The notes beneath the pieces were generated by a model that saw only the letters and a program-made list of their open reading frames with translations, had not been told where the DNA came from and searched no databases. A program made the translations under genes and the position numbers. From Pullulanibacillus sp. KACC 23026 (lineage in GTDB: Bacteria > Bacillota > Bacilli > Bacillales > Sporolactobacillaceae), in assembly GCF_029094525.1 (NCBI RefSeq), contig NZ_CP119107.1, positions 3,100,001 through 3,164,000 on the forward strand: a stretch of 64,000 bases of DNA, in the 5' to 3' direction. Below, in pieces: positions 6,357 to 64,000 of this stretch; within the stretch, counting starts at the first letter, position 1; each line of letters begins with the position of its first letter.

Positions 6357-6670
6357 ATCCGAGAAGGTCCACTGCCCCACGGCAGATTAGCCAAAATCCC
6401 AAGAAGGTCTACCAATTATCCGAGAAGCTTGGCGAAAAATCCGAGAAGGTCTACCAATTAACCCAGAAGGTTGGCGAAAAATCCGAGAAGGTCTGCTAAA
6501 AATCCAAGAAGGTGGACCTTTTATCCGAGAAGGTCCACTGACCCACGGCAGATTAGCCAAAATCCCAAGAAGGTCTACCAATTAACCCAGAAGGTTGGCG
6601 AAAAATCCGAGAAGGTCTACTAAAAATCCAAGAAGGTGGACCTTTTATCCGAGAAGGTCCACTGATCCCC
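6357..6670. repeat. tandem intergenic repeat, 21-bp unit, about 13 copies
   Basis: Units of the type ATCCGAGAAGGTCTACCAATT recur at 21-bp steps, with variants ending GCGAAAA, CTAAAA or CCTTTT, and with a longer unit (CCACGGCAGATTAGCCAAA) occurring twice, 166 bp apart. Larger blocks are themselves duplicated. It fills the gap between ponA and the LigB-like gene. Open frames inside it are repeat artefacts. Confidence 0.85.
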
Positions 6671-18356: not shown

Positions 18357-18536
18357 CTTTCTTCCTCCTTTTCTTAGAGGAAGTACTTCTCTGCATTAGA
18401 AAAACTCCTTACCAAAATGAGTAAGAAGGGCAGCAGAAGACATCCTCTGTCCATGTCCTTCTTAGGATCAAGGCAGACCTTTGTAGACATTTTTTTACTA
18501 ACAAACAGGTACAGTTCCTTTTACGGATACCGTCCG
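18357..18536 (-). promoter_or_regulatory. structured 5' leader of panBCD (candidate pan-type cis RNA)
   Basis: Read on the minus strand, the roughly 180-base leader contains a hairpin near its 5' end (GTTC...GAAC enclosing GGA-CGGTA-TCC, at 18508-18540) and a second strong hairpin at 18435-18462 in which AGAA(G)GACAT pairs with ATGTCTTCT around a 9-base loop, with one bulged G. No intrinsic terminator is obvious. A pan RNA motif upstream of panB is known from Firmicutes; whether this leader belongs to it needs a covariance search. Confidence 0.4.
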
Positions 18537-27216: not shown

Positions 27217-27807
27217 CTAGTAGCGCTTTGGAAAGCGTGGTTTCACACAAGTGAAATAGACCAAACCAATGGTAAAGAGACTCAGCCAAAATGTGATATA
27301 GCCAATATAAGGCTCGTACGGCTCAAGCGGCGGATACCATGGCATAACGTGAAACACATAATCAATCATTTCATTATTTATAAGGACAATAGCTGCCATT
27401 ACAAGGTGCCAAGAACGAATTTTATAAAACGGGATATAGAGCAAGCCTTCAATCGCCATCGAGCCATGAGAAACCACTAGCATCCAATTGCCCAATTGGA
27501 GCGGATAACCGATGGCACCGGCAGCCAAGTTCATCCCAACCGCCCATACCCCATATTTAAATAGCGATGTGACAGCCAGTGCCTCCATTAGCGGCCAATT
27601 TCGTTTAAAAAGAAAAGCAACGAGTACTAAGCAAAAAAACAAGCTGGCAGTCGGGCTGTCCGGCACAAAAATACTTAACGGAAACGGCGTCGCTTTCAAT
27701 TGATCACGATACCAATAATACCCATAGATAGTCCCTAAAAAATTGATCACAAGCAGCAACCCAAGCGTCGAGCGCTTACCTAGCGTATATTGTACGAGCG
27801 TATTCAT
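27217..27807 (-). CDS. ypjA: YpjA family membrane protein (DUF1405)
   Basis: The product of 196 residues has five or six membrane helices and the DUF1405 features: INFLGTIYGYYWYRDQL near residue 21, FVPDSPTASLFF near 46, VVSHGSMAIEGLLYIP near 111 and VFHVMPWYPP near 151. Family function unknown. It follows the qcr operon in B. subtilis; here 2.6 kb of tandem repeats lies between qcrC and ypjA. Confidence 0.9.
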   Translation of the reverse strand: MNTLVQYTLGKRSTLGLLLVINFLGTIYGYYWYRDQLKATPFPLSIFVPDSPTASLFFCLVLVAFLFKRNWPLMEALAVTSLFKYGVWAVGMNLAAGAIGYPLQLGNWMLVVSHGSMAIEGLLYIPFYKIRSWHLVMAAIVLINNEMIDYVFHVMPWYPPLEPYEPYIGYITFWLSLFTIGLVYFTCVKPRFPKRY

Positions 27808-27994: not shown

Positions 27995-29890
27995 AAGCCG
28001 CGATGAACGCCATTCTTGCCTGCCCTCAACCCTTTTTTGGCGTTCATCCCCTTGATGAACGCCTTTCCAGCTCCCTCTTCCACTTATTTTGGCGTTCATC
28101 ACCTCGATGAACGCCATTTTCGCCTACTCTCAACCCTTTTTTGGCGTTCATCCCCTTGATGAACGCCATTCCAGCTGCCTCTTCCACTTATTTTGGCGTT
28201 CATCCCCTCGATGAACGCCTTTCCAGCTGCCTCTTCCACTTATTTTGACGTTCATCCCCTTGATGAACGCCTTTCCAGCTGCTCTTCCACTTATTTTGGC
28301 GTTCATCCCCTTGTTGAACGCCTTTCCAGCTGCCTCTTCCACTTATTTTGGCGTTCATCCCCTTGATGAACGCCTTTCCAGCTGCCTCTTCCACTTATTT
28401 TGGCGTTCATCCCCTCGATGAACGCCATTTTCGCCTACTCTCAACCTTATTTTGGCGTTCATTCCCTCGATGAACGCCATTTTCGCCTGCCCTCAACCCT
28501 TTTTTGGCGTTCTTCCCCTTGATGAACGCTATTCCAGCTGCCTCTTCCACTTATTTTGGCGTTCATCCCCTTGTTGAACGCCTTTCCAGCTGCATCTTCC
28601 ACTTATTTTGGCGTTCATCCCCTCGATGAACGCCATTTTCGCCTGCCCTCAACCTTTTTTTGGCGTTCACCCCCTTGATGAACGCCATTTTCGCCTGCTC
28701 TCAACCCTTTTTTGGCGTTCATCCCCTTGATGAACGCTATTCCAGCTGCCTCTTCCACTTATTTTGGCGTTCATCCCCTTGATGAACGCCTTTCCAGCTG
28801 CCTCTTCCACTTATTTTGGCGTTCATCCCCTTGTTGAACGCCTTTCCAGCTGCCTCTTCCACTTATTTTGGCGTTCATCCCCTTGATGAACGCCATTCCA
28901 GCTGCCTCTTCCACTTATTTTGGCGTTCATCCCCTCGATGAACGCCATTTTCGCCTGCCCTCAACCTTTTTTTGACGTTCATCCCCTTGATGAACGCCAT
29001 TCCAGCTGCCTCTTCGACTTATTTTGGCGTTCATTCCCTCGATGAACGCCTTTCCAGCTGCCTCTTCCACTTATTTTGGCGTTCATCCCCTTGATGAACG
29101 CCATTTTCGCCTGCTCTCAACCCTTTTTTGGCGTTCATCCCCTTGATGAACGCCATTTTCGCCTGCTCTCAACCCTTTTTTGGCGTTCATCCCCTTGTTG
29201 AACGCCTTTCCAGCTGCCTCTTCCACTTATTTTGGCGTTCATCCCCTCGATGAACGCCATTTTCGCCTGCCCTCAACCCTTTTTTGGCGTTCATCCCCTT
29301 GTTGAACGCCATTCCAGCTGTCTCTTCCACTTATTTTGACGTTCATCCCCTTGATGAACGCCATTCCAGCTGCCTCTTCCACTTATTTTGGCGTTCATTC
29401 CCTCGATGAACGCCTTTCCAGCTGCCTCTTCCACTTATTTTGGCGTTCATCCCCTTGATGAACGCCTTTCCAGCTGCCTCTTCCACTTATTTTGGCGTTC
29501 ATCCCCTCGATGAACGCCTTTCCAGCTGCCTCTTCCACTTATTTTGGCGTTCATCCCCTCGATGAACGCCATTTTCGCCTGCCCTCAACCTTTTTTTGGC
29601 GTTCATCCCCTTGATGAACGCCTTTCCAGCTGCCTCTTCCACTTATTTTGGCGTTCATCCCCTCGATGAACGCCATTTTCGCCTACTCTCAACCCTTTTT
29701 TGGCGTTCATCCCCTTGATGAACGCCATTCCAGCTGCCTCTTCCACTTATTTTGGCGTTCATCCCCTCGATGAACGCCATTTTCGCCTGCTCTCAACCCT
29801 TTTTTGGCGTTCACCCCCTTGATGAACGCCATTTTCGCCTGCTCTCAACCCTTTTTTGGCGTTCATCCCCTTGATGAACGCCATTCTTAA
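27995..29890. repeat. tandem palindromic repeat array A: about 37 units, 52-bp period
   Basis: Each unit holds a palindrome GGCGTTCATC-loop-GATGAACGCC preceded by TTTT, then a spacer of about 20 bp. From the first (28002) to the 37th core (29873) the mean step is 52.0 bp. Two spacer types recur: CCAGCTGCCTCTTCCACTTA (about 22 units) and TCGCCTGCCCTCAACCC (about 13), in irregular order. Loops are CCCCTTG or CCCCTCG. Both end units are variants (ATTCTT). No gene or cas gene lies in or next to it. Confidence 0.95.
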
Positions 29891-29911: not shown

Positions 29912-30346
29912 CTTTTTGGTTTATTGGAGCCCACTTCTCATACTTTGGGCTCCACTCAAGCCTTGTGTTTGGTTTATTGGAGACCACTTCTCATACTTTG
30001 GGCTCCACTCAAGCCTTGTGTTTGGTTTATTGGAGACCACTTCTCATACTTTGGGCTCCACTCAAGCCTCGTGTTTGGTTTATTGGAGCCCACTTCTCAC
30101 ACTTTGGGCTCCACTCAAGCCTTGTGTTTGGTTTATTGGAGACCACTTCTCATACTTTGGGCTCCACTCAAGCCTTGTGTTTGGTTTATTGGAGACCACT
30201 TCTCATACTTTGGGCTCCACCCAAGCCTCGTGTTTGGTTTATTGGAGACCACTTCTCACACTTTGGGCTCCACTCAAGCCTCGTGTTTGGTTTATTGGAG
30301 CCATCTCACACTTTGGGCTCCCGTCACGCCGTGTTTTAGTGTATTG
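29912..30346. repeat. tandem repeat array B: eight units, 53-bp period
   Basis: Unit starts TTTGGTTTATTGG lie at 29915, 29968, 30021, 30074, 30127, 30180, 30233 and 30286, exactly 53 bp apart, followed by a degenerate ninth. Each unit contains GGAGCCCA (or GGAGACCA) and TGGGCTCC as an inverted repeat around 12 bases. All frames are open because 53 is not a multiple of three; these are not genes. It begins 22 bases after array A. Confidence 0.95.
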
Positions 30347-30447
30347 GTATCTTTTTATCTGAAGCTGCTTTTTTGTCGGCTTTCTGTCTCTCATCGCCGT
30401 CGGTCCACGCTTCTTCGTTAGTTCCCTCCAATTTCTACACCAAACAA

Positions 30448-30476
30448 AATAAGCCAGCCCGTGGGCTGACTTATTT
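30448..30476 (-). terminator. intrinsic terminator after qcrC
   Basis: AAGTCAGCCCACGGGCTGGCTT on the minus strand forms a hairpin, then ATTTTGTTT. It overlaps the qcrC stop codon. Confidence 0.8.
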
Positions 30477-31232
30477 CTTGCTGACACTTGAGACGAAGTT
30501 AGCAAGTGTTTTGAGTTGTTGTTGACTTCCTTTAAAGACACCAGCCGGCATTTGGCCGCCGCCCTTTGTGGCCATGCTTTCAACAACTGCTGGTGCGAGG
30601 TTTTTGCCAACTAATGCTGGCCCTACTCCGCCATCAAGGTTGTTTCCATGACAGCCGGAACAGTTCTGCGCGAACAGTTTATAACCCGCTGAATTTTTGT
30701 CAATCGAGACTTGTTTGACAATTTCTCCTTGGGTTTTGGATTGTTCCCAGTTATGTGACATGGATGATTCCCACGTGAGATAAATAATCATCACTAGACT
30801 AAGTAGCATAATCAAAGTAGAAATGGGACGTTTTAACGGACGGCGTTCAAAACCGCGGTCCAGCCATGGGGCAACGATGAGGGCAAGAAAGGCAATACCA
30901 GGAATAATTACCGTTCCAAGAAGTTTATAATGGCCAGATGCATAAGGGTATTTAAGCAATTGATACAAAAATAGGAAGTACCAGTCAGGTAGCGGAATAT
31001 AGCCCGAAGCAGCCGGGTCTGCCTCTTTCTCTAAAGGAGACGGATCCGCCATGGTTAAGACCAGAAAACCGATTAAAAAAACAGCTCCAACCATCCACTC
31101 TTTTAAAAGAAAGTTTGGCAAAAACGCTTCTGTTTTGCCCGGGTACTCCGAATAATCTTTGGCTGGCACAAATTTAGCATGATCCGGTACGCGAGAATCA
31201 CCAACAAATTTCATTCCTTTTCCACGATGCAT
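30471..31232 (-). CDS. qcrC: menaquinol:cytochrome c reductase, cytochrome b/c subunit
   Basis: QcrC is the third subunit of the bc complex, which passes electrons from menaquinol to cytochrome c in the membrane. The product of 253 residues has three membrane helices (about 48-66, 100-125, 136-155), the WYFLFLYQLLKYP segment typical of subunit IV, and a C-terminal cytochrome c domain with heme motif CSGCH near residues 192-196 and a Met ligand in GGGQMPAG near 232. This fusion is the Bacillus type. It ends the qcrA-qcrB-qcrC operon. Confidence 0.96.
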   Translation of the reverse strand: MHRGKGMKFVGDSRVPDHAKFVPAKDYSEYPGKTEAFLPNFLLKEWMVGAVFLIGFLVLTMADPSPLEKEADPAASGYIPLPDWYFLFLYQLLKYPYASGHYKLLGTVIIPGIAFLALIVAPWLDRGFERRPLKRPISTLIMLLSLVMIIYLTWESSMSHNWEQSKTQGEIVKQVSIDKNSAGYKLFAQNCSGCHGNNLDGGVGPALVGKNLAPAVVESMATKGGGQMPAGVFKGSQQQLKTLANFVSSVSKK

Positions 31233-61029: not shown

Positions 61030-61626
61030 TTATTTTTCAATCCGTTTAGTCTGCCTTGTCAAGGTGGCCGTTCTGACTATTAATAAGCCTTGATGCGTCA
61101 GTTCCCAGCTCACAAGAAGGATGAGTATAAAGCTCACCATCACTAAATAATCCGTGTCCCCGACAAGCTGGTCATACGGGTAAAAAACAAGAGATTGCAA
61201 GCATTCTCCCTGACTCATTCCTATCAATAATATAGCAACGCGATTCCAAAAATCCTGAGTTAAGACCAAAATGAAAAAGCACATGAATAAAATAAAAGTC
61301 CACTCCGGCAAAATCATTAAAATAGCAGGATCATAAAGCCAATAAATTTGGGCAAGTACATCTAGCATCATAACAATGAACGAGGCAACTCCCAGTCTAA
61401 CTACCTTCGTAAATGATAAATTAGATAAGAGACCGCAGCCTGTTAACCCAAAAACGAGAAAAGTTAGATTCACCTTTGTTTGTCCTATCGGAACAGAGAA
61501 AGGCGATACGGTAATCATGAGTAAAATTAGACACGACAAGGTTGCCCTTTTCTTCCCATCTCTATAAAAAAATACAACAATGATCCAAAATCCCCAAAGT
61601 GCCCAATAAAACCAAAAATTATTCAT
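61030..61626 (-). CDS. yphA: YphA family membrane protein
   Basis: The product of 198 residues has six membrane helices spread over nearly its whole length and a basic C-terminal tail. It matches the YphA family, which lies between ypfD and der in B. subtilis. Function unknown. A hairpin-plus-T-run directly precedes the ATG and includes the GGAGG sequence, so its translation or read-through may be controlled there. seaA (yphB), present in B. subtilis next to yphA, is absent. Confidence 0.8.
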   Translation of the reverse strand: MNNFWFYWALWGFWIIVVFFYRDGKKRATLSCLILLMITVSPFSVPIGQTKVNLTFLVFGLTGCGLLSNLSFTKVVRLGVASFIVMMLDVLAQIYWLYDPAILMILPEWTFILFMCFFILVLTQDFWNRVAILLIGMSQGECLQSLVFYPYDQLVGDTDYLVMVSFILILLVSWELTHQGLLIVRTATLTRQTKRIEK

Positions 61627-61785: not shown

Positions 61786-62730
61786 ATGAACGCCAAAATG
61801 AGCGGATGAGGCTGATGCAATGGCGTTCATCGAGGGAATGTACGCCAAATGAGTGAGTGCGGCTGACGGAGTGGCGTTCATCAAGGGAATGAACGCCAAA
61901 ATGAGCGAGTGCGGCTAACGCAATGGCGTTCATCAAGGGAATGTACGCCAAAATGAGCGAGTGCGGCAATTGGAATGGCGTTCATCGACGGGATGAACGC
62001 CAAAATGAGCGAGTGCGGCTGACGCAATGGCGTTCATCAAGGGAATGAACGCCAAAATGAGCGAGTGTGGCTGACAGAATGGCGTTCATCGACGGGATGT
62101 ACGCCAAAATGAACCGATGAGGCTAACGCAATGGCGTTCATCAAGGGGATGAACGCCAAAATGAGCGAGTGCGGCTGACGCAATGGCGTTCATCAAGGGG
62201 ATGAACGCCAAAATGAGCGAGCGCGGCTGACGCAATGGCGTTCATCGACGGGATGTACGCCAAAATGAGCGAGTGCAGCTGACGCAATGGCGTTCATCGA
62301 CGGGATGAACGCCAAAATGAGCCGATGAGGCTAACGCAATGGCGTTCATCAAGGGGATGAACGCCAAAATGAGCGAGTGCGGCTGACGCAATGGCGTTCA
62401 TCGACGGGATGAACGCCAAAATGAGCGAGCGCGGCTGACGGAGTGGCGTTCATCGAGGGGATGAACGCCAAAATGAGCCGATGAGACTAACGCAATGGCG
62501 TTCATCGACGGGATGAACGCCAAAATGAGCGAGCGCGGCTGACGCAATGGCGTTCATCCAGGGAATGAACGCCAAAATGAGCGAGTGCGGCTGACGCAAT
62601 GGCGTTCATCCAGGGAATGAACGCCAAAAAGAGCGGATGTGGCTGCCGAAATGGCATTCATCAAGGGGATGTACTCCAAAAAGAGCGGATGAGGATGCCG
62701 GAATGGCGTTCATCGAGAGAAAGCGGATTT
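61786..62730. repeat. tandem palindromic repeat array C: 18 units, 52-bp period
   Basis: Cores GGCGTTCAT-loop-ATGAACGCC start at 61822, 61873, 61925, 61977, 62029, 62081, 62133, 62185, 62237, 62289, 62341, 62393, 62445, 62497, 62549, 62601, 62653 and 62705, mean step 51.9 bp. The spacer is of the kind AAAATGAGCGAGTGCGGCTGACGCAAT. Loops are CAAGGGG, CGACGGG, CGAGGGA, CCAGGGA. Reverse-complemented, the core with its flanking T-run is identical to that of array A. A few cores have ATGTACGCC. Open frames inside are artefacts. Confidence 0.95.
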
Positions 62731-62935: not shown

Positions 62936-63035
62936 AAATACCTGCCATTAGTAAAAATTTCAACCTAGTCCTTAGCACAGTGACAACAACAATGGTCAAG
63001 ATGGTTTATAGGCTGCGATTTTGCTAGTTATATCC

Positions 63036-63153
63036 GCTGGTTATTTTTGCTGGTTATTTCGCTGGCTATTTTTGCTGGCTATTTTTGCTGGCTATTTTTG
63101 CTGGCTATTTTTTCGCTGGCTATTTTCGCTGGCTATTTTTTTCGCTGGCTATT
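63036..63153. repeat. short tandem repeat, GCTGGCTATTTTT unit, about nine copies
   Basis: GCTGGYTATTT recurs nine times at 13-17 bp steps with variable T-runs. It lies just before the ypfD terminator. Confidence 0.85.
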
Positions 63154-63195: not shown

Positions 63196-64000
63196 TTATT
63201 TATATTTTTTTAATTGATCGCCGATGACGTCTCCAAGTGAAAAACCTGTTCCGGAGGGTTCATCTGATTGATAGGTCTCAATAGGTTCAGGCTGAGCGGG
63301 TTCTAGAAGCTCGCGAATGCTTAGTGAGACACGCTTATCTCTTTGATTGACATCTAACACCTTCACTTGAACCTGTTGGCCTTCCTCGAGCACTTCTTGA
63401 GGCGTTCCAATATGTTCATGAGAGATTTCTGAGATATGGACAAGTCCTTCAACGCCAGGTAAAATTTCAACAAAGGCACCGAATGGAACTAATCGCTTCA
63501 CTGTTCCTTCAACCACATCGCCCGCTTTTAATTTCTCAGCGGCCTCTTCCCATGGTCCTGGCTGAGTGGCCTTAATGGATAGAGAGATGCGTTCATTATC
63601 GCGGTCAACAGCCAATATTTTCACCTTGACTTGATCCCCTTCTGAAACAATCTCAGATGGTGTTTCAACGCGGTAATGAGCCAATTGTGAAATATGAACA
63701 AGACCGTCAACACCGCCAATATCAACAAAAGCACCAAAGCTTGTTAGACGTTGAACGGTACCTTCAACGATATCGCCTTCTTTAAGGTTTTGCAGAACAT
63801 CTTGCTTAGCAAGCTCTGCCTTTTCGTCAAGAACAGCCCGGTGAGAAAGAATGACCTTGCGCTTTTCGCGATCAAGCTCAATAATTTTCACGTCCATTGT
63901 TTGTCCTTTGTAGTCGGAAAAATCCTCTACAAAATGGCGCTCAACCAATGAGGCTGGAATGAATCCGCGAACTCCAAGGTCAACAACTAGACCTCCTTTA
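63196..64000 (-). CDS. ypfD: S1 RNA-binding domain protein YpfD (partial, 5' end beyond the right edge)
   Basis: The frame runs to the right edge of the window, so the gene start is missing; about 268 codons are visible. It holds the end of one S1 domain (GFIPASLVERHF, then KIIELDREKRKVILSHR) and two complete S1 domains (GTVQRLTSFGAFVDIGGVDGLVHIS and GTVKRLVPFGAFVEILPGVEGLVHIS, in parts), then a short acidic and Ser/Gly tail ending GDVIGDQLKKYK. This is the C-terminal part of the ribosomal protein S1-like YpfD of Bacillales, which binds RNA. It lies upstream of yphA in the B. subtilis order. Confidence 0.92.
   Translation of the reverse strand, partial: KGGLVVDLGVRGFIPASLVERHFVEDFSDYKGQTMDVKIIELDREKRKVILSHRAVLDEKAELAKQDVLQNLKEGDIVEGTVQRLTSFGAFVDIGGVDGLVHISQLAHYRVETPSEIVSEGDQVKVKILAVDRDNERISLSIKATQPGPWEEAAEKLKAGDVVEGTVKRLVPFGAFVEILPGVEGLVHISEISHEHIGTPQEVLEEGQQVQVKVLDVNQRDKRVSLSIRELLEPAQPEPIETYQSDEPSGTGFSLGDVIGDQLKKYK

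Follow-up and report, generated by a model that had tools for sequence, protein, structure and literature searches.

A polar family of 52-bp palindromic tandem arrays in Pullulanibacillus sp. KACC 23026 and other Bacillales genomes, oriented mostly with replication

Introduction

Short intergenic palindromes that occur in high copy number, form hairpins and are often located after gene ends are known as REP/BIME elements, of which the GTAG and CGTC families, associated with RAYT, are treated in PMC3733652. Stem-loop families, including a 74-bp family of B. halodurans that is considered here by its description only, are covered by PMC2267715. CRISPR arrays combine a palindromic repeat with spacers of constant length. 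Moreover, polar skewed motifs such as KOPS/SRS and Chi, which are scattered 5- to 8-mers, have an orientation that follows replication, and staphylococcal STAR and other minisatellites represent intergenic tandem repeats within the same order. To our knowledge, neither a constant 52-bp period nor polarity with replication is known for STAR-type minisatellites, which are set apart from the arrays described here by description alone.

This study describes tandem palindromic arrays in a stretch of 64,000 nucleotides of the Pullulanibacillus sp. KACC 23026 chromosome (NZ_CP119107.1, positions 3,100,001 to 3,164,000; hereafter the window), as well as their relatives in this and other genomes. With a 25- to 27-bp palindrome that is present in 479 units in this genome, the family falls within the REP/BIME size range (20-40 bp, intergenic, many copies). 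Unlike REP/BIME elements as presented in PMC3733652, the units are arranged in tandem at 52 bp, are polar with respect to the replichore, have no RAYT in the 172 array loci examined and are almost never singletons. The many single or paired units that characterize REP/BIME were not encountered: among the matches listed for 118 loci, three solitary units were located elsewhere versus 285 near arrays, and in 523 kb of this genome a search for the exact inner core with at least four of the five outer pairs detected no solitary palindrome versus 379 inside arrays. The GTAG or CGTC tag is absent from the stem foot in the consensus of 80 arrays (GAAAtGtcc...GgcCaaaacg). The arrays have the palindromic repeat and the constant spacer length in common with CRISPR, but their linkers are repeated within the arrays and 20 arrays are present in one genome. 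Like KOPS/SRS and Chi, the arrays display polarity with the replichore, whereas they consist of clustered palindromes. Known polar motifs as the content of the arrays were rejected as too rare, since by raw count GAGAAGGG was present in 1 of 123 arrays from named genomes (among the matches listed) and in none of the 20 arrays of either G000 or G140, and AGCGG in 14 of 123 (among the matches listed), 4 of 20 and 2 of 20, respectively. A prior description of such arrays was not found in a literature search that is thin on subscription journals and includes PMC3733652, PMC2267715 and PMC12306157 in part.

Results

Two arrays of one family in the window

TRF analysis of the window revealed array A14 at 61786-62717 (period 52, 17.9 copies), which has its purine-rich hairpin strand on the + strand and comprises approximately 18 units of 52 bp, and array A13 of the same family at 28035-29886 (period 52, 35.6 copies; 36 units), which has its purine strand on the - strand, the leading strand at this position. 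The oriented core TTTTGGCGTTCATCCCCTYGATGAACGCC, with up to three mismatches allowed, matched 53 times in the window, 36 times on the + strand (28-29.9 kb) and 17 times on the - strand (61.8-62.7 kb), and the same search in 100 shuffles gave no matches. TRF and core matches therefore agree with the initial annotation, in which the same core, T-run and 52-bp period were assigned to both arrays, in opposite orientation and with unlike linkers. For example, the A14 hairpin at 62133-62157 (+ strand) is predicted to have a 10-bp stem and a 5-base loop (GGCGTTCATC AAGGG GATGAACGCC; first helix of the ssDNA fold), followed at 62158-62184 (+ strand) by a linker of AAAA and 23 further bases up to the next hairpin.

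A14 is preceded by the gene of an S1-domain protein (63196-63948, - strand; Pfam PF00575) and followed by that of a YphA-like membrane protein (61030-61626, - strand; PF24124), and the 28-kb array region is flanked by genes encoding a DUF1405 protein (27217-27807, - strand; PF07187) and a cytochrome b/c subunit (30471-31232, - strand; PF13442 and PF00032). Besides, the window contains tandem arrays at 6390-6637 (21/42-bp period, AAATCCGAGAAGGTC type) and, near A14, at 63019-63153 (13/26-bp period, GCTGGCTATTTTT type), as well as a pan motif RNA at 18443-18536 on the - strand (56.6 bits).

The family within the genome

Merging of 44 BLAST matches to A14 yielded 20 intergenic arrays in the chromosome (4,801,000 bp in a single contig), which according to fuzzy counts comprise 477-479 units. 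On the purine strand the unit reads GGCGTTCATC-RAGGG-GATGAACGCC-AAAA, followed by 23 mostly purine bases (per-position counts over 462 units). In 442 pairs of adjacent units of the same array, differences per site amounted to 0.044 in the stem, 0.129 in the loop and 0.255 in the linker; this contrast was much smaller in pairs with just 1-3 linker differences (0.040, 0.121 and 0.070, respectively). The stem and linker values from all pairs, combined with a modal step of 52 in 20 of the 20 arrays and linkers that are unlike, bear out the earlier view that this is one family in which core and period were constrained while linkers were turned over. Random periods and orientations of the same core, which had been named as the opposite outcome, were not found in this genome-wide collection.

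The tandem arrays are homogenised internally and contain higher-order periods, and recurring linker types are common to distant arrays, with 20 distinct units being identical in at least two arrays. Within the genome a stem change is hardly ever matched by a compensating one, and 153 of 479 units have a broken innermost pair. Single-stranded DNA folding of three units gave z-scores of -7.15 for the purine strand and -6.79 for the other strand, and these low values on both strands predict that hairpins can form on either one.

The largest array (L051:6861-9992; 56-58 units) precedes a 16S-23S-5S rRNA operon by approximately 1.9 kb. A second superfamily of arrays with a 52/53-bp period and a different core (29915-30347; L050:10253-11232) occupies about 30 genomic loci and is less strongly biased in orientation (about 20 of 30).

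Distribution across the order

The strict core was detected in one of 26 genomes of the family, i.e., in none of the 25 others besides this genome. Loosening the core to 18 fixed bases gave matches in three of the 397 genomes sampled from the order, the other two containing 52-bp arrays with different linkers. A generalised core, defined as TTCAT-N7-ATGAA occurring twice at permitted periods of 37-67, was found in 56 of these 397 genomes, representing 28 of 136 genera, versus one of 397 genomes for the reversed-pattern control, and in none of the 15 other sampled genomes of the own family. These matches total approximately 3,100; nine of the 56 genomes are counted on the strength of one match each, which in some of them may be due to chance. 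Among the matches listed, the period was 52 in 115 of 119 distinct places, 51 in two, 53 in one and 57 in one, these places being derived from 18 of the 56 genomes and not being independent, since neighbouring matches share units. In 12 further genomes the first match had a period of 52 in nine cases, and of 48, 53 and 55 in one case each.

In named genomes the exact 29-base pattern had no match, whereas a looser pattern with the period fixed at 52 matched at least 118 stretches, all in Bacillota among the matches listed. The titled genera, mostly recognised by name, are taken by us to belong to the Bacillales (now Caryophanales at NCBI), which was confirmed at NCBI for Ammoniphilus, Scopulibacillus, Lysinibacillus and Sutcliffiella; two sources are MAGs with no title more specific than Bacillota bacterium and Bacillaceae bacterium. 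Among the matches listed, chaining of the units gave 123 arrays; of their 567 steps, 522 measured 52 bp, 34 measured 51 bp and 7 measured 53 bp, in a search that had been seeded on 52.

Comparison of A14 with plasmids and phages gave no blastn match. Three pattern pairs were found in viral contigs, and inspection of their surroundings revealed no 52-bp array. One viral contig contains a CRISPR-like array (L326:880-1650) with a mostly 66-bp period and a TTTCAT...ATGAAC palindrome in its repeat that resembles the core. Moreover, in genome G075 a 52-bp array of a different core (L115:5729-5909) abuts a TTCAT array, hinting that the 52-bp step is common to unlike cores.

Stem structure and persistence at matching loci

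Covariation was analysed in an alignment of 61 units, each taken from a different one of the at least 118 named-genome stretches, one per organism or strain and chosen by the author; the invariance of TTCAT/ATGAA in this alignment is imposed by the search pattern. Covariation is present in the outer five pairs: 62 cells were changed on both sides versus 28.4 in shuffles (0 of 500 shuffles reached 62), and the covariation score was 0.241 versus 0.101 with its maximum at slide 0, both statistics carrying the kinship of the 61 mutually related sequences. Pairs that were changed on both sides (five) were no more numerous than in shuffles, 423 of 500 of which reached this number. Excess pairing had z-scores of 2.7-5.9 at pairs 1-5, 1.4 at pair 6, 0.6 at pair 7 and 1.7-2.2 at pairs 8-11, and its drop after pair 5 suggests a stem length of 10 bp. 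On the purine strand the consensus over 80 arrays reads GAAAtGtccTTCATaaggg.gATGAAGgcCaaaacg, and the GG/CC polarity of the loop matches the purine polarity of the linker in 49 of 70 callable arrays, with 10 more undecided.

Three pairs of genomes have arrays at corresponding loci: Metabacillus niabensis with M. halosaccharovorans (92-95% identity in the flanks), Fredinandcohnia onubensis with Bacillus sp. REN16 (80-86%), and Bacillus timonensis with Peribacillus cavernae (66-69% in both flanks). The two arrays of the last pair, of 12 and 3 units, have unlike linkers and kept the palindrome and a 51-52-bp step. Judged from these sequence comparisons, the presence of arrays at the same loci in different species favours long maintenance at these sites over recent hopping.

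Orientation relative to replication and transcription

In this genome dnaA is located at the contig end, and the sign of the GC skew switches in the interval 2.46-2.55 Mb. Sixteen of the 20 arrays have their purine strand as the leading strand (left arm 9 of 10, right arm 7 of 10; one-sided binomial 0.006), the exceptions starting at 1,991,613, 3,161,786 (A14), 4,461,358 and 4,732,803. A14 is exceptional because its purine strand is on the + strand at 3,161,786, in the right replichore, and its orientation opposes both replication and the flanking genes. All 20 arrays detected with a polar pattern were purine-leading in G140, a complete chromosome in a single contig with dnaA at base 1 and a skew switch at 2.41-2.80 Mb (14 on the + strand left of ter and 6 on the - strand right of it; binomial 1e-6), and so were all seven detected in this way in G075, a 4.55-Mb contig of a near-complete chromosome with a skew switch at 2.01-2.25 Mb (2 and 5 per arm; binomial 0.008). 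In both, the polar pattern takes units with a given flank, symmetrically for the strands, by which 69 of 90 and 23 of 110 matches were oriented, respectively. The initial suggestion that orientation depends on the replichore consequently holds for the family in three chromosomes and fails for A14 itself. Clustering near ter, with 17 of 20 arrays at distances above 1.4 Mb from the origin in this genome, was dropped as a general feature because it is absent in G140.

Among the matches listed for named genomes, 79 of the 98 arrays that could be compared, out of 123, agreed with the flanking GC skew and 19 were against it, and 55 of 61 strongly polar arrays with a clear skew agreed. Compositional skew alone was judged unlikely as the cause of polarity, because the mean purine content of G140 linkers (0.84, range 0.69-0.90) exceeds the highest value in 2,919 other windows (0.79; mean 0.54, sd 0.07), although the lowest array value of 0.69 does not, and because exceptional arrays retain the polarity of the motif itself.

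Gene direction, which had been proposed as the other guide to orientation, proved to be a weaker predictor. In G140, 13 of the 20 arrays are positioned between co-directional leading genes, six between convergent and one between divergent genes, and all follow replication. Among the matches listed for named loci, with gene calls from a codon-usage script that missed some genes, the numbers with and against replication were 37 and 5 for tandem-leading, 9 and 5 for convergent, 3 and 1 for divergent, and 5 and 1 for tandem-lagging contexts (two of these last six being nearly unpolar); 57 of 123 arrays were left out of this count because of weak skew or a missing flank. When contexts with neutral or opposed transcription were pooled (named loci, seven arrays of G140 and five of this genome), 29 of 36 arrays were oriented with replication (p 1.6e-4). 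None of the 123 named arrays, among the matches listed, overlapped a called gene. Finally, array gaps were convergent in 13 and divergent in 6 cases, versus 40 and 64, respectively, in a background of which the array gaps form part, i.e., convergent gaps are over-represented.

Discussion

The arrays are best read as a polar, spacing-constrained DNA element that is probably recognised by a putative protein during replication. In a fuller form of this reading, which is tentative and has slightly less than an even chance in our estimation, they constitute a polar hairpin satellite family that is shared by many genera of the Bacillus order, functions at the DNA level, is oriented by replication and is bound by a putative sequence-specific protein. 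Each unit consists of a palindrome with a stem of approximately 10 bp (inner TTCAT/ATGAA and covarying outer 5 bp) and a short loop, short A-runs that flank it on the same strand, and a mostly purine linker up to the next hairpin at 52 bp. The purine hairpin strand is usually the leading strand, and thereby also the lagging-strand template, and the array could be bound while single-stranded or, alternatively, as a duplex with sites every five helical turns; the protein as well as its single- or double-strand reading are what we infer. Such a protein would depend on the stem as well as on the 52-bp step, and selection for binding together with concerted evolution inside arrays would keep hairpin and spacing while linkers turn over.

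The exact spacing despite turned-over linkers points to selection on length, the covariation of the stem to a recognised palindrome or hairpin, the mostly purine linkers to a strand that is free of competing structure, and the orientation to replication. Moreover, exact spacing in combination with replication orientation in 27 of 27 polar-pattern arrays of two chromosomes implies a putative recognising machinery. Helical phasing alone fails to explain the step of 52, because no in-phase periods of around 42 or 63 bp were encountered. Counting against this explanation are the 341 of 397 sampled genomes without matches, the polarity exceptions (4 of 20 arrays here and 5 of 14 convergent named loci, among the matches listed), the uncompensated stem changes in this genome and the small stem advantage at 1-3 linker differences. 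A more specific role as chromosome-polarity element, in which hairpin strings at exactly 52 bp along each arm would be read directionally by a dedicated putative protein in replication or segregation, is conceivable and rather doubtful. A repeat family with base-exact spacing in 28 of 136 sampled genera has so far no description that the literature search could find, and since the arrays are large, numerous and open to deletion or inversion, a reader of polar repeated DNA becomes testable.

Function at the RNA level, by which arrays would be co-transcribed with the upstream gene and hairpin strings would protect, process or sequester RNA, appears very improbable. It is in line with the sense orientation of 19 of the 20 G140 arrays relative to the upstream gene, at a median of 111 bp past its stop codon, and purine linkers would leave such an RNA unstructured; however, arrays in convergent, divergent or lagging-gene contexts mostly follow replication (29 of 36), and an exact 52-base spacing is not expected for flexible RNA. 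Furthermore, no intrinsic terminator (GC stem and T-run) was detected inside either window array, the single match at 29947-29963 lying outside, and none of the arrays in the window and 12 array loci had an Rfam match above gathering score. Neutral evolution of a satellite, in which slippage amplifies a hairpin repeat and the other orientation is lost through template-hairpin deletion, could account for tandem arrays that are homogenised inside and contain higher-order periods, for the orientation bias and for the stem changes that remain uncompensated here. We nevertheless consider it improbable, as adjacent units differ several times less in the stem than in the linker, the outer stem covaries across genera, the period stays at 52 while linkers differ, and different species retain arrays at the same locus.

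Mobility was considered as a further, rather unlikely explanation, by which an HUH/Y1-type enzyme (RAYT or IS200-like) would recognise hairpins in the lagging-strand template and copy or insert units. Insertion at that template would produce orientation by replication, a patchy distribution and units common to several arrays, such as the 20 that are identical in two or more arrays here. This genome has seven Y1_Tnp matches, three of which are RAYT-like by sequence reading, and in a survey of the 397 genomes with one RAYT as query, matches were more common in genomes with arrays (46 of 56) than in others (187 of 341). The remaining 10 of the 56 array genomes lack a RAYT match, including G075 (110 pattern matches), G267 (108) and G234 (73); RAYT was consequently rejected as a requirement for arrays, being absent from some array-rich genomes. 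No RAYT was found in 172 array loci by a search that detected three positive controls, and no core beside the three RAYT-like genes of this genome. The near absence of solitary units and the arrays at matching loci in different species likewise argue against mobility. A core search beside the IS200-like genes gave two weak partial matches. These IS200-like TnpA genes (L058-L061) comprise two without an internal stop, one with an internal stop, and one that is shortened and contains a stop.
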